DNA of 64,000 nt from Flavivirga jejuensis (GTDB lineage Bacteria; Bacteroidota; Bacteroidia; Flavobacteriales; Flavobacteriaceae): the NCBI RefSeq assembly GCF_030540765.1, contig NZ_JAUOEL010000003.1, forward strand, positions 434,001 through 498,000. The letters run 5' to 3'. The position numbers and the translations under genes are program-made. Of this stretch, positions 41,701 through 54,837 are shown piece after piece. The notes below the pieces were generated by a model that was given only the letters and a program-made list of their open reading frames with translations, had not been told where the DNA came from and did not search any database. The stretch's first letter is position 1; every line of letters begins with the position of its first letter.

Positions 41701-43013
41701 GCATAATCAAACCCTTCCTTTACTCCTGTTACAGTTATTCCCGATTGTACCGTTGCAACATCTCTAATAGCATCTGTAAGTTGAGACCCAGTGCCTCCAA
41801 TATTGGTTGGATCGAACCCATTATTCGGGTTATTTGGTAAGGCTCCTGGAGCTAGTATATTGACATCTGAGCCTACTTGATTAGGATCACCACTAGACTC
41901 ACCTAAATCTTGAAGTGCTACAATGTTTCTAACATTTTCGGTTGCATTGCTTCTATTAGTTATCCAAACCTCATGCCTTGTAATTTGTAATCCTTTATTA
42001 TTTTTAAACGGATAATTCTCTAAAGCCGTATCATAGGTGTCTCTAAAATACTGGGCTATAAAGAAGTGTCTATTCTCATCGTAATCTCTAATGAATAAAT
42101 CAAATTCTTCTACGGTACCTCCTCCTTGAGCAATAACTGTATTAGATTCTGATTTTTGTTCGGAAAACACTGCTGTTACAGAGGTTTTTCCAAATTGCAA
42201 TTGTGCTTTTACACCAAATAAACTTTGTGCTCCTGTAATTAACGAGCTATTTAAAGGCATACTTACATTACCTACTTCTATTTTTTGAATAATATCATCT
42301 TCTGTAGGCGTGTATTCTAATTTAATTAGATTTTGAAAATCGAAAGTTGATTGCATATCATAATTAGCAGTCACTTGTAATCGAGTACCGACTTTCCCTA
42401 ATAAACTTAAACTAATTCGTTGATCAAAATCAAACGTAAAACTGCTCCTGTTTCTGGGTGAAAATGACGGATTATCTTGCTTTGAAAACAACACCCCTAA
42501 ATCCATTTCTACAGACCCTTGTGGAATAACCTCAATCGTATTACCTCCAAAAATGGTTTCGAATAAATCCGATTTCACATAAAACTCTGGCAATAGATTT
42601 TTTTGTTCATCTTTTGCGTCTCCTTTTTTACCATCGAAAGCATCAATTTTTTCTTTATAATAAGATCGTAAGTTTTCTTTTGCTACGAAATCATAATACT
42701 CTTTAGGTGTTAAAATAATGGGGTAGTTAATATCGAAACGGCCTATCTTTTCTGTATAAATGTATCTATTGGTAATAGGATCGTAAGTATATTTAGATTC
42801 TACGCTATTAGGGTTTGGTGTTTTTAAACGACCTAAATTATACCCTGTTTTAACAGAATCTTGTGCAGGAATTTGTTGCGACCATACTGTAACCGAAAAG
42901 AATAGAGCAAGAATTAAAAAAGCACTTCGACGAAACTTGTCTTGAGCGTAGTCGAAAGGCTGAGTATCACTCTTTTTAATTAATTCATAAAATCTAAAGT
43001 TGGTTTTATTCAA
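35724..43013 (-). CDS. sprA: SprA, outer-membrane translocon of the type IX secretion system
   Basis: This is a 2429-residue protein, in the size range of SprA. SprA is a giant barrel that forms the T9SS pore across the outer membrane and is needed for gliding and for export of proteins with C-terminal sorting domains. Typical blocks are seen: ITNRYIYTEKIGRFDINYPIILTP near residue 80, APGAPKGTNLNGEATSYVDDFEGSQSSIDL near 860, and a barrel-type C-terminus (SGFTIRYNFGN). The start is a TTG at 43013, 7 bases after the ruvA stop; no ATG is available before the mature part. Residues about 15-31, upstream of the hydrophobic signal segment FLILALFFSVTVWSQ, are encoded by a dispersed repeat (see 42921-42971). 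Confidence 0.95.
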   Translation of the reverse strand: MNKTNFRFYELIKKSDTQPFDYAQDKFRRSAFLILALFFSVTVWSQQIPAQDSVKTGYNLGRLKTPNPNSVESKYTYDPITNRYIYTEKIGRFDINYPIILTPKEYYDFVAKENLRSYYKEKIDAFDGKKGDAKDEQKNLLPEFYVKSDLFETIFGGNTIEVIPQGSVEMDLGVLFSKQDNPSFSPRNRSSFTFDFDQRISLSLLGKVGTRLQVTANYDMQSTFDFQNLIKLEYTPTEDDIIQKIEVGNVSMPLNSSLITGAQSLFGVKAQLQFGKTSVTAVFSEQKSESNTVIAQGGGTVEEFDLFIRDYDENRHFFIAQYFRDTYDTALENYPFKNNKGLQITRHEVWITNRSNATENVRNIVALQDLGESSGDPNQVGSDVNILAPGALPNNPNNGFDPTNIGGTGSQLTDAIRDVATVQSGITVTGVKEGFDYAKLENARKLISGQEYTLNSELGYISLNQRLNNDEVLAIAFQYTLGGKVYQVGEFANDGVDATDVTTNTSGEVTQVVNTNLILKLLKSSITNVDQPVWNLMMKNIYDTGAYNLSADDFTLNIFYNEASPLNFITPVGGSFDLDINGNPVNGNTEEEDLIQNVPLLRLFNLDRLNFNNDPQIGGDGFFDFYEGITVISQNGKIVFTSAEPFGEYLFNALGGGDYDNNVSYNDNQSKYVYDVLYKSTKTEALEEVEKNKFKLKGRYKSTGSDGIPIGSFNVPRGSVKVTAGGRVLVEGIDYTVNYQLGRVQILDEALKASNTPIEVSTENNAVFGQQTKRFTGVNVEHKFNENFVLGATLLNLNERPVTQKANYGTEPINNTIFGFNGNYATKVPFLTRLANKLPNIDTDVESNLSLRGEFAYLAPGAPKGTNLNGEATSYVDDFEGSQSSIDLKSQQSWFLSSRPYDLDGDGLEGAEDLNGIENGYDRALLNWYSIDPIFYSSQRPTGISDEDVSSLYTSRVFINELFPDVDLVQGQNSVLFTLDLAYYPQERGPYNFNPSSVDGIDAIEAENSWAGITRQLTSTDFEQQNVEYIEFWLQDPFQEDPTNSGGKLVFNLGNISEDIIKDGKKLYENGLPEDGNIDLLPVTTWGTVTPQNQSLVYAFDTTGDERTNQDVGYDGYSDADEIGVFGTSFGDDPANDNYTYFLNTEGDIFERYKKYNGVEGNTPETFTDTDRAANTQPDVEDVNRDNTMNTIDSYYEYELDITRENLPASQTDFDIIPDSNPLKEFLRDFKDQPRELANGETENVRWYQFRIPVEGDHATPIGGISDLRSIRFARIYLKEFTEKTVFRFGTLDLVRSDWRRYTQALDKNDATPDDPQTEFSVGVIGTLENEGSYESPPGIEPEELFNNNTVVEQNEQSLVVKVCDLESQDLRGVYKNINIDMRQYERLRMFIHAEDSESGTGNLDDNDLVGFIRMGNDLTENYYQIEIPLQLSTSITSEGLWPESNEINIPTALLGEIKSLGISNGTLSNEDPTFYDVVGSDLIPVTNQFQGYVSGQHRIAVKGNPNFGDIRTLMVGVKNITTNNDVCAETWFNELRLSGMDNEGGWAAVLSMDTNIADFANISATGSKSTSGFGGIEQGPSERSLEDVQQYDVVTNINVGKLLPKKWGIQLPFNYAQSEELITPKYDQFYQDLTLDSRIAAADTQEKKDEIKEQSEDYTKRQSVNFIGVRKTRTSDATPRFYDVENLTLNYSYNKVEHRDFEIENSIDKTLRVGANYAFNFNPITVEPFKKNDSLFTGKYWKILKDLNVNLLPTSFTINTDINRQFNRQKFRNVDLGESDISIDELFRRNYTFDFQYTINYNLTKSLQLNFTAANNNIVRNYFKDNIINGEQDPDLDVWDGILDFGDPNSQSQNLGISYQLPINKIPTFSFIDATYQYTGNFQWQKGSDLYGDLELNGETYNLGNTVQNSNVHNINSSLDMNRFYKYIGLVKKPIKRVRSRTPSRAGAPPGAGEKKKAPPKAKNQSVTKLLNAGVSVLTSVKRIQLSYSENNGTYLPGYLQSPGFIGTLKPTTGFIFGSQSDVRDLAARRGWLTVFPEFNEQYSATHTKQLDLSASLEPVKGLKIDLVGSRSYLENYSENFIVNGDPETYEYESLTPNTFGNFNISTILIKTAFSKSDENISEAFNDFRTNRLTVARRLAAKNGANLNDLDDDGFPKGYGKSSQAVLLPAFLAAYTGKDASGVELGAFRDVPIPNWDLKYSGFMKFAWFKKRFKRFSLTHGYRSTYTINQFQSNLDYVAINPNLDYDSQSSNTKDQSGNYKNEDLLSNINLTETFSPLVRLDFEMKNSVKILAEVKKDRLISLSFDNNLMTEVLGNEYVIGLGYRIKDLRIRSKLAGPRKRIVSDLNMKADISVRDNKTIIRYLDVENNQVTSGQTIWGLKYSADYAFSKNLTGLFYFDYSFSEYAISTAFPQTTIRSGFTIRYNFGN
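42921..42971 (-). repeat. Dispersed repeat inserted in frame in the sprA N-terminus
   Basis: In gene direction this reads CTCAGCCTTTCGACTACGCT and onwards to TTCGTCGAAGTGC. It encodes DTQPFDYAQDKFRRS ahead of the signal segment. CTTTCGAC and GTCGAAG form a palindrome. The unit matches the repeats around the GIY-YIG gene (for example GCACTTCGACTGCGCTCAG). It is a 16-17 codon insertion without frame damage. Confidence 0.75.
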
Positions 43014-54154: not shown

Positions 54155-54360
54155 GGGCTTCGACTGCGTTCAGCCTGGCAGCAGTAAAAATATTTTAGTT
54201 TTAACAACAATTCGACAAACCTATAACTTGTTAATATCTTAGGTGTTTTTTTGATGGTGTAAATATAAATGAATTCTCTGATGTCGCACTGAGTCCAGTC
54301 AAAGTGCTTATTTATGTATTAATATCTATAGGGTTTTGACTGCGCTCAGCCTGACAAAAT
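54155..54360. repeat. Cluster of inverted repeats on the left side of the GIY-YIG gene
   Basis: Three copies are seen: GGCTTCGACTGCGTTCAGCC at 54156, GTCGCACTGAGTCCAGTC at 54284, and TTTTGACTGCGCTCAGCC at 54334. The second is inverted relative to the third, so these two form a long hairpin. No gene is in the 239-base gap 54147-54385. Confidence 0.7.
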
Positions 54361-54385
54361 CGATAAAAATTTAACATTCGTAAAC

Positions 54386-54697
54386 TTAATCTTTATATCT
54401 ATAATGTGTGGCATTTCGACATTCTGATAGTATTTGAAGCATATCAAAATTTCCATTTATTAACGCTTGCTTTTTTAGTCTCGTCCATCCCTTAATTTTC
54501 TTTTCAAAATAAATTGCTTGTAAGACATTATTGAATTCTTGATAAAACTCTAATATTAATGGTCTTCTTTTATATGTATATGAGCCTTTTTTATATCCTA
54601 ATTCATGCTCTTTGAAACGTTTTTCTATATTATTCGTTATTCCTGTATAATAGGAATCATCTGAACATTTTATTATATAGACATAATATAAATACAT
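54386..54697 (-). CDS. Small GIY-YIG nuclease family protein
   Basis: This is a 103-residue single-domain protein. The catalytic elements look intact: YVY at 5-7, YTGI at 17-20, Arg27 in NIEKRFKEH, and Glu65 in AIYFEKKIKGW. The family (often named excinuclease subunit C-like or UPF0213) is related to the endonuclease domain of UvrC and of homing enzymes; the role of the free-standing form is not established. The gene is flanked at once on both sides by inverted copies of the same palindromic repeat. This is reminiscent of REP-associated enzyme genes (inference). Confidence 0.9.
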   Translation of the reverse strand: MYLYYVYIIKCSDDSYYTGITNNIEKRFKEHELGYKKGSYTYKRRPLILEFYQEFNNVLQAIYFEKKIKGWTRLKKQALINGNFDMLQILSECRNATHYRYKD

Positions 54698-54711
54698 GTT
54701 TAATTTTTTAT

Positions 54712-54837
54712 GGGCTTCGACTGCACTCTGACATTACCATTAATACTTCATTAAAGACTCGACAAGGTTAGAGTTTGTAATTAACCTTTACTGTTAATTT
54801 TCATCTAATTGTCACACTGAGCGCAGTCGAAGTGCAA
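54712..54837. repeat. Inverted repeats on the right side of the GIY-YIG gene
   Basis: GGGCTTCGACTGCACTCTGAC at 54712 is inverted relative to CACTGAGCGCAGTCGAAGTGC at 54815. Together they form a hairpin pair about 15 bases upstream of the GIY-YIG start. The rest of the gap 54698-54914 contains nothing recognised. Confidence 0.7.

Follow-up and report, generated by a model that had tools for sequence, protein, structure and literature searches.

A solo GIY-YIG nuclease gene bounded by REP-like repeats in Flavivirga jejuensis: a candidate mobile element related to CGTC-tagged REPs

Introduction

CGTC-tagged REPs constitute a superfamily that includes the neisserial dRS3 and the rickettsial RPE-4/6 repeats (Di Nocera 2013, PMC3733652). 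In the part of that survey on which we draw, the units are described as having a [CT]GTC tag, an AT-first stem of 8-9 bp and a CCA-like tail and as occurring mostly in head-to-head pairs, and Azospirillum lipoferum and Neisseria are among the taxa named (PMC3733652). According to the same part of the survey, a dedicated transposase was apparently lacking and the question was left open (PMC3733652). The loci described below differ from this picture in that a GIY-YIG gene lies between the units.

REPtrons, which combine a RAYT (TnpA-REP) gene with GTAG REPs, and REPINs share with these loci a lone REP-flanked gene, inverted pairs throughout the genome and a matching of enzyme and repeat, as far as they are covered in that part of the survey (PMC3733652). 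Here, in contrast, the enzyme is a GIY-YIG nuclease and not an HUH/Y1 transposase, and the tag is CGTC-like and not GTAG; because both enzyme and tag differ, the element in question appears to work like a REPtron without being one. The RAYT side of this comparison is partly general knowledge. Free-standing GIY-YIG homing endonuclease genes, such as the seg genes of phage T4, are also lone GIY-YIG genes that invade a specific intergenic site, whereas the target in the present case would be a dispersed repeat, present in many genomic copies, that also forms the boundaries of the element. In the literature searched, which mostly did not extend to subscription journals and preprints and does not prove novelty, no report linking GIY-YIG genes to REPs was found. 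A Moraxella paper, in the part considered, names GIY-YIG and RAYT merely in one table of accessory genes (PMC9465073).

Results and discussion

Structure of the window locus

The window is the whole 64-kb stretch of F. jejuensis DNA that was analyzed here. On its minus strand, an ORF at 54386..54697 encodes an intact protein of 103 aa with a complete GIY-YIG domain. By searching for the core TTCGACTGCGCTCAG with up to 3 mismatches, we identified five repeat units within 231 bp of this gene, all of them variants of the core and present in both orientations. The initial annotation had described the gene as bracketed by repeats, and units are indeed found on both sides; the core matches, at 54159(+), 54289(-), 54335(+), 54716(+) and 54817(-), follow the order + - + [gene] + -, which is not the strict alternation that it had proposed. 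To the left of the gene, the outermost unit (54155..54180, minus strand; core 54159-54173, 1 mismatch) has a degenerate tag, TGCCA. Next comes an inverted pair, whose left arm (54282..54307, plus strand; core 54289-54303, 3 mismatches) carries a TGTC(G) tag at its left, outer end and whose second arm (54331..54356, minus strand; core 54335-54349, 1 mismatch) carries TGACA at its right, gene-facing end. The unit to the right of the gene (54712..54733, minus strand; core 54716-54730, 2 mismatches) has its TGACA tag at the outer, right end, and the last one (54810..54835, plus strand; core 54817-54831), TGTCACACTGAGCGCAGTCGAAGTGC, is a perfect copy of the 21-mer given in the initial annotation.

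The window as a whole contains 6 core matches, a number not reached in any of 100 shuffles, compared with 0.43 expected. Outside the locus, a single copy was found with up to 3 mismatches allowed, at 42942 inside an ORF of 2429 aa that may be the sprA named in the initial annotation; copies had also been reported from other gaps of the window, where none was detected at this threshold. Across the host genome (6.0 Mb, 33 contigs), a search allowing up to 2 mismatches gave 64 copies, and the reversed control gave none. The window locus accounts for four of the 64, versus 0.007 expected in 700 bp, and one further copy is located 3 bp from a broken second gene (L007, on C33), whose start and end resemble the window gene and whose middle is missing.

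The window's own repeat has the TGTCA tag and the head-to-head pairing of CGTC REPs, but hardly any palindrome of its own: a single flavobacterial unit is not self-complementary (fold z-score +0.35), whereas the canonical CGTC unit of the named loci described below folds alone (z -4.0). The pair in the window folds (z -2.65), as does a composite pair (z -8.0). Thus, the repeat that had been called palindromic is so as an inverted head-to-head pair and not as a single unit.

The window protein matched PF01541 with 62.3 bits (curated cut-off 22.6), which was its sole Pfam match at E <= 0.001, with no HUH/Y1 transposase domain; NCBIfam gave no match at E <= 0.001. A reading as a defence system, based on a weak KwaB match in PADLOC (E 7e-5), was dropped. 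Five residues (Y7, Y17, G19, R27 and E65) were invariant in 16 sequences and include the conserved GIY/YIG tyrosines, arginine and glutamate of the nuclease. In Foldseek comparisons, the AlphaFold model (pLDDT 89, pTM 0.78) was most similar to the UPF0213 proteins 1zg2 and 1ywl, followed by Slx1-Slx4 (E 0.01-0.07, probability 1.0) and the nuclease domain of UvrC (E 0.6). UPF0213 and Slx1 share the fold and family profile of the window protein, but the UPF0213 entries bear the title of hypothetical proteins. In eukaryotes, Slx1 acts as a nuclease together with Slx4, and the PDB titles of Slx1 refer to a branched-DNA nuclease. The predicted Slx1-like fold would be compatible with a nuclease that sees folded or branched DNA.

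Two more solo genes of about 100 aa, each with different repeats, are present in the host genome. One of them (L001) lies between two copies of a ATTCCTGC..GCAGGAAT family that is abundant in the genome, with 87 matches per strand at up to 3 mismatches, mostly identical palindromic sites (control 1 and 5). The other (L004, 1327-1926) is flanked by long direct repeats of 160 bp that are 94% identical and nearly private, as four of five matches are at its own locus; a dispersed family is therefore not found for every cassette of this genome. The upstream repeat copy of L004 extends over the final bases of the gene. At L008, other repeats, of the form GATTCTTCGCTGCGCTCTGAATGA, were seen in the gap 3' of an exonuclease-GIY-YIG fusion gene.

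Association of solo GIY-YIG genes with repeats

To cover the family, PF01541 was searched in 149 genomes from 148 genera, and 60 solo genes with up to 4 kb per side were taken from the higher-scoring end among the matches listed, together with L001, L004 and the window gene; 2 of these 63 genes were dropped because of short flanks, and L007 was excluded as broken. We looked for an exact string of at least 14 bases common to both 300-bp flanks of a gene, direct or inverted. Among the matches listed, 34 of 61 GIY-YIG genes had such a string, compared with 6 of 250 other ORFs taken from these loci, which corresponds to an odds ratio of 51. Named genomes were scanned with an alignment of six family proteins as query, and the best 80 of at least 557 confirmed loci were analyzed, which come from Proteobacteria, Bacteroidota, Chloroflexi, Omnitrophota, candidate phyla and others. 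After four loci with short flanks had been dropped, 49 of 76 genes among these best 80 of at least 557 were positive versus 10 of 285 control ORFs. The test was negative at 27 of 61 family genes and at 27 of 76 named loci. GIY-YIG genes therefore lie far nearer to repeats than other ORFs do, as the initial annotation had supposed, and this association is directly supported.

The units of the named loci, of which CGTCATTCCCGCGAAGGCGGGAATCCAG is an example, agree with CGTC REPs as published: they have a CGTC or TGTC tag, a short AT-first stem and a CCA-like tail, the comparison being with the descriptive text in part of the survey (PMC3733652). As a probe for tag and stem, the 10-mer [CT]GTCATNCCN was searched around the best 80 of at least 557 loci. 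Within 250 bp of the genes we counted 195 occurrences, or 4.95 per kb; farther than 600 bp away there were 85, or 0.18 per kb. Among these best 80 of at least 557, it was present within 250 bp at 70 loci, on both sides at 47, and 10 had no CGTC tag motif within that distance. The nearest tags point outward on both sides at 28 of the 47 two-sided loci and not at the remaining 19. Where the left unit is outward (38 loci), its tag starts a median of 43.5 bp upstream of the start codon, which, with a unit of 28 bp, leaves some 10-20 bp between the two; where the right unit is outward (44 loci), it is directly at the stop codon in 12 (offset 18). In the 28 outward-outward loci, the distance spanned from tag to tag ranges from 344 to 502 bp, with a median of 372 bp. 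In the units shown for 21 loci, the tags read TGTCA or CGTCA. Whole-genome counts of a related 13-mer, carried out for 30 of the 80 loci, gave copies in 28 of 29 genomes, up to 228, with 6 control matches in total. Among the taxa with a gene beside CGTC-type units are A. lipoferum and a record of Neisseria gonorrhoeae. The role proposed in the initial annotation for one flavobacterial repeat family appears to extend further, to CGTC-REP-like units in many phyla.

Some additional features of these loci should be mentioned. The N. gonorrhoeae record (L238, NZ_CP119140.1) is 2.17 Mb long and filed as a plasmid; the GIY-YIG gene is unannotated there and has a CGTC-type unit, which we take to be dRS3-like, directly 3'. 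At L109, L158, L194, L150 and L099, the C-termini of the GIY-YIG proteins resemble translated repeat (for example, ...PLSRG and ...PLPEPVEG), so that the repeat would abut or overlap the end of the gene. Tandem cassettes were seen at L266 and L263: G143 has three copies with a period of 337 bp and 99.9% identity, and G013 has repeated arrays around the genes.

Shorter solo GIY-YIG genes that adjoin tRNA genes are a sister group. Among the matches listed for the family, a tRNA gene on the same strand was found within 400 bp of 8 of 10 short genes (<=90 aa; L070, L085, L098, L107, L116, L119, L123 and L125), compared with 1 of 53 longer solo genes and with 1 of 80 named loci (best 80 of at least 557). 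L002 of the host genome also adjoins a tRNA gene, tRNA-Leu, and some of the short genes have partial tRNA copies, 25-30 bp long, on their flanks.

Correspondence between repeats and nuclease subfamilies

Gene pairs from different genomes were binned by protein identity and examined for a 12-mer common to their flanks. Such a 12-mer was found in 77 of 106 pairs with at least 60% identity, 31 of 141 with 50-60%, 25 of 411 with 40-50% and 18 of 1276 below 40%, and none of 2000 permutations reached the observed contrast. Syntenic pairs accounted for 24 of the 106 highly similar pairs; after their removal, the figures were 54 of 82 versus 18 of 1269. The 3' flank alone gave 52 of 106 versus 6 of 1276, and control stretches 1 kb off gave 8 of 106 versus 10 of 1276. 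For pairs within one genome, a 12-mer was shared by 0 of 17 below 60% identity and by 1 of 2 above. Judged from these sequence comparisons, repeat type tracks the nuclease subfamily and not the host, and the co-variation of repeat and nuclease subfamilies anticipated in the initial annotation is borne out, also without the syntenic pairs. Since flank sharing follows protein identity beyond synteny, the repeat would accompany the nuclease to new places; and since divergent pairs of the same genome share no 12-mer, one host can carry several nuclease-repeat pairs.

Presence and absence of the gene at conserved sites

The interval that contains the gene in the window, bounded by what look like queG and a P450 gene, was found in 12 of 12 genomes of the genus searched; 11 were compared, G158 being excluded for the other DNA that it has there. 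Five of the 11 sites have the gene, with two tandem copies in G154, and in G157 it lies between two outward-tagged units. Among the six gene-less sites, an outward-tagged inverted pair is present in G151 and G149; the pair of G019 has its tags directed inward, G155 shows three units that all run the same way, and no unit was detected at up to 3 mismatches in G150 or G156. On the basis of these 11 syntenic sites, five with the gene and six lacking it, the element in the window would extend over 452 bp, from 54282 to 54733 (54282..54733, no strand assigned), and would comprise an outward-tagged unit, an inner unit, the gene and another outward-tagged unit.

Sphingobium plasmids provided 11 records of the whole fnrL locus, 7 with and 4 without the gene, of which 3 of the 7 and all 4 gene-less ones were aligned. 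TYG46 has REP, gene and REP where TYG64 has one palindromic solo REP, and the two differ by a 333-bp insert with REP core on both sides. This is the one case of an insertion that interrupts a REP and is absent from a similar allele; the interrupted REP would be the target of the nuclease. TYG74 has a similar REP with changes, and TYG72 and TYG65 carry other sequence there. A gene-less pair in MM15, TYG73 and TYG64 falls within a difference of ~147 bp from TYG46, and in MM15 and TYG73 its inner edges (TCCCGCT / GTAGCGGGA) are those of the gene-bearing form. The TYG73 gene matched in two tblastn pieces and is broken. Between sufB and sufC of A. lipoferum 4B, the gene stands between two REP pairs, and neither the gene nor the REP pairs occur in any of the four relatives aligned. 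No fixed-length target-site duplication could be established; the Sphingobium alleles show further differences outside the insert, and gene-bearing and gene-less sites are too diverged for exact ends. In 18 genomes compared for near-identical cassettes as proof of recent movement, the strong matches were tandem within one locus. Between separate places, gene-sized matches (93-96%, ~23 kb apart) were seen only in G128, others were lower (for example, 81% in G106), and the comparison is not decisive.

A mobile element and the routes it may take

Our preferred reading, to which we assign a probability of roughly 0.7, is that gene and flanking repeats together make up a single selfish mobile element, with a nuclease that acts on the REP ends of the element. 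The initial annotation had suggested that the nuclease may play the role of a RAYT for a repeat family, and association and co-variation support this view; the enzymatic act itself is an inference. In the simplest case, an outward-tagged unit ([CT]GTCA...) would be followed after some 10-20 bp by the GIY-YIG gene, and a copy of the unit in inverted orientation would lie at the stop codon of the gene or close to it. The nuclease would most likely cut or nick its cognate repeat, probably when folded, and repair would then copy the repeat-flanked gene into the cut repeat in a homing-like way. Recombination between flanking repeats may lead to tandem copies or gene loss; scattered inverted pairs may be gene-less derivatives similar to MITEs or REPINs, and single units may be relics or targets. 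Homing-like copying, which fits the Sphingobium insertion inside a REP, is the route that we favor, and we give it a little less than an even chance. The window locus itself runs counter to the simple layout in having an extra unit, with its tag gene-ward, between the gene and the outer unit. In addition, many copies look degenerate, so that present activity is uncertain.

True transposition, that is, excision or copy-out of the repeat-bounded DNA, perhaps single-stranded and with the units as ends, would fit the outward tags at both ends, the stereotyped span (median 372 bp) and the Azospirillum insertion at a place where four relatives have no REP, as well as the MITE-like gene-less inverted pairs with the inner edges of the gene form. 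However, the Sphingobium gene sits inside what is a solo REP in TYG64, no fixed target duplication was seen at the sites compared, and the GIY-YIG enzymes known to us are nucleases, not transposases. We consider this route plausible but less likely than homing-like copying.

Repeat copy number and Y1 transposases

The repeats might instead be spread by RAYT (Y1) transposases, with GIY-YIG genes merely landing in REPs as insertion hot spots; IS elements reportedly target REPs. Y1_Tnp matches were indeed present in 59 of 149 family genomes, including that of F. jejuensis, and genomes with Y1 had somewhat more copies of the window repeat, both overall (median 3 versus 1, p 0.011) and among genomes with the cognate clade of the nuclease (27 versus 8.5, p 0.016). 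This clade, defined by a match to the window protein at E <= 1e-37, is found in 19 of the 149 genomes: at up to 1 mismatch, clade genomes had a median of 16 copies (n=19) and the others a median of 1 (n=130; p 5e-9), and 17 of 19 versus 28 of 130 had at least 5 copies. The clade effect persisted in Y1-free genomes (median 8.5 in 8 genomes versus 1 in 82, p 6e-4), whereas Y1 was no predictor in clade-free genomes (48 versus 82 genomes, both medians 1, p 0.12). A RAYT is therefore not needed as driver, although a small Y1 effect remains overall and in clade-positive genomes. In the host genome, the eleven Y1 matches are weak and RAYT-like, some with stops (they include C6:30050-30758, C28:216474-218249 and C32:37501), and the five places listed are each at least 3.9 kb from the nearest copy of the window repeat. 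Landing in hot spots does not predict the matching of subfamily and repeat, and no RAYT or IS200 gene flanked by CGTC units is reported in the part of the 2013 survey used here (PMC3733652). Taken together, these results make a RAYT origin improbable.

It should be noted that 10 of the 45 genomes with at least 5 copies had no nuclease match at E <= 1e-20, and one of these is G019, a congener that carries 20 copies. A weaker match was seen in 8 of them, and G021 and G080 had none at E <= 0.001. The initial annotation would have been refuted by repeat-rich genomes commonly lacking the nuclease; the enrichment for the clade speaks for it, and these 10 genomes speak against it.

A role in host repair, in which an Slx1-like nuclease is kept near REPs (hairpins or terminators) that it processes and nothing moves, could draw on the predicted Slx1-like fold and on the REP directly after the stop codon, which could serve as a terminator. 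Against it stand the patchy presence at conserved loci, the occurrence of several solo genes in one genome, tags that point outward on either side of the gene, and genes that are broken or in tandem; we consider it very improbable. Finally, an artefact of vertical inheritance or sampling is hardly credible: although synteny accounts for 24 of the 106 highly similar pairs, the named set was made up of the best 80 of at least 557 loci and the family loci come from the higher-scoring end among the matches listed, the effect survives without syntenic pairs and in the 3' flank alone, and repeats played no part in sampling.

Implications

A version of the enzyme matched to a version of the repeat in many unrelated bacteria suggests that a tiny, unrecognized class of mobile DNA made these repeats. 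With odds that we put slightly above even, solo GIY-YIG genes bounded by CGTC-type REPs would be widespread, unrecognized autonomous mobile elements that, at ~350-450 bp, rank with the smallest possible; the CGTC REP superfamily (dRS3, RPE and others) would have its missing source in them, and a sister group would have taken tRNA genes as its home in place of the REP. GTAG REPs have their RAYTs, and for CGTC REPs the corresponding question becomes directly testable now that dozens of genomes offer a concrete enzyme together with cognate repeat pairs. If true, the common annotation 'GIY-YIG nuclease family protein' would gain a function and several families of small repeats would be explained; an extremely small selfish element would be added to those known, together with a natural series of matched nuclease and target pairs.
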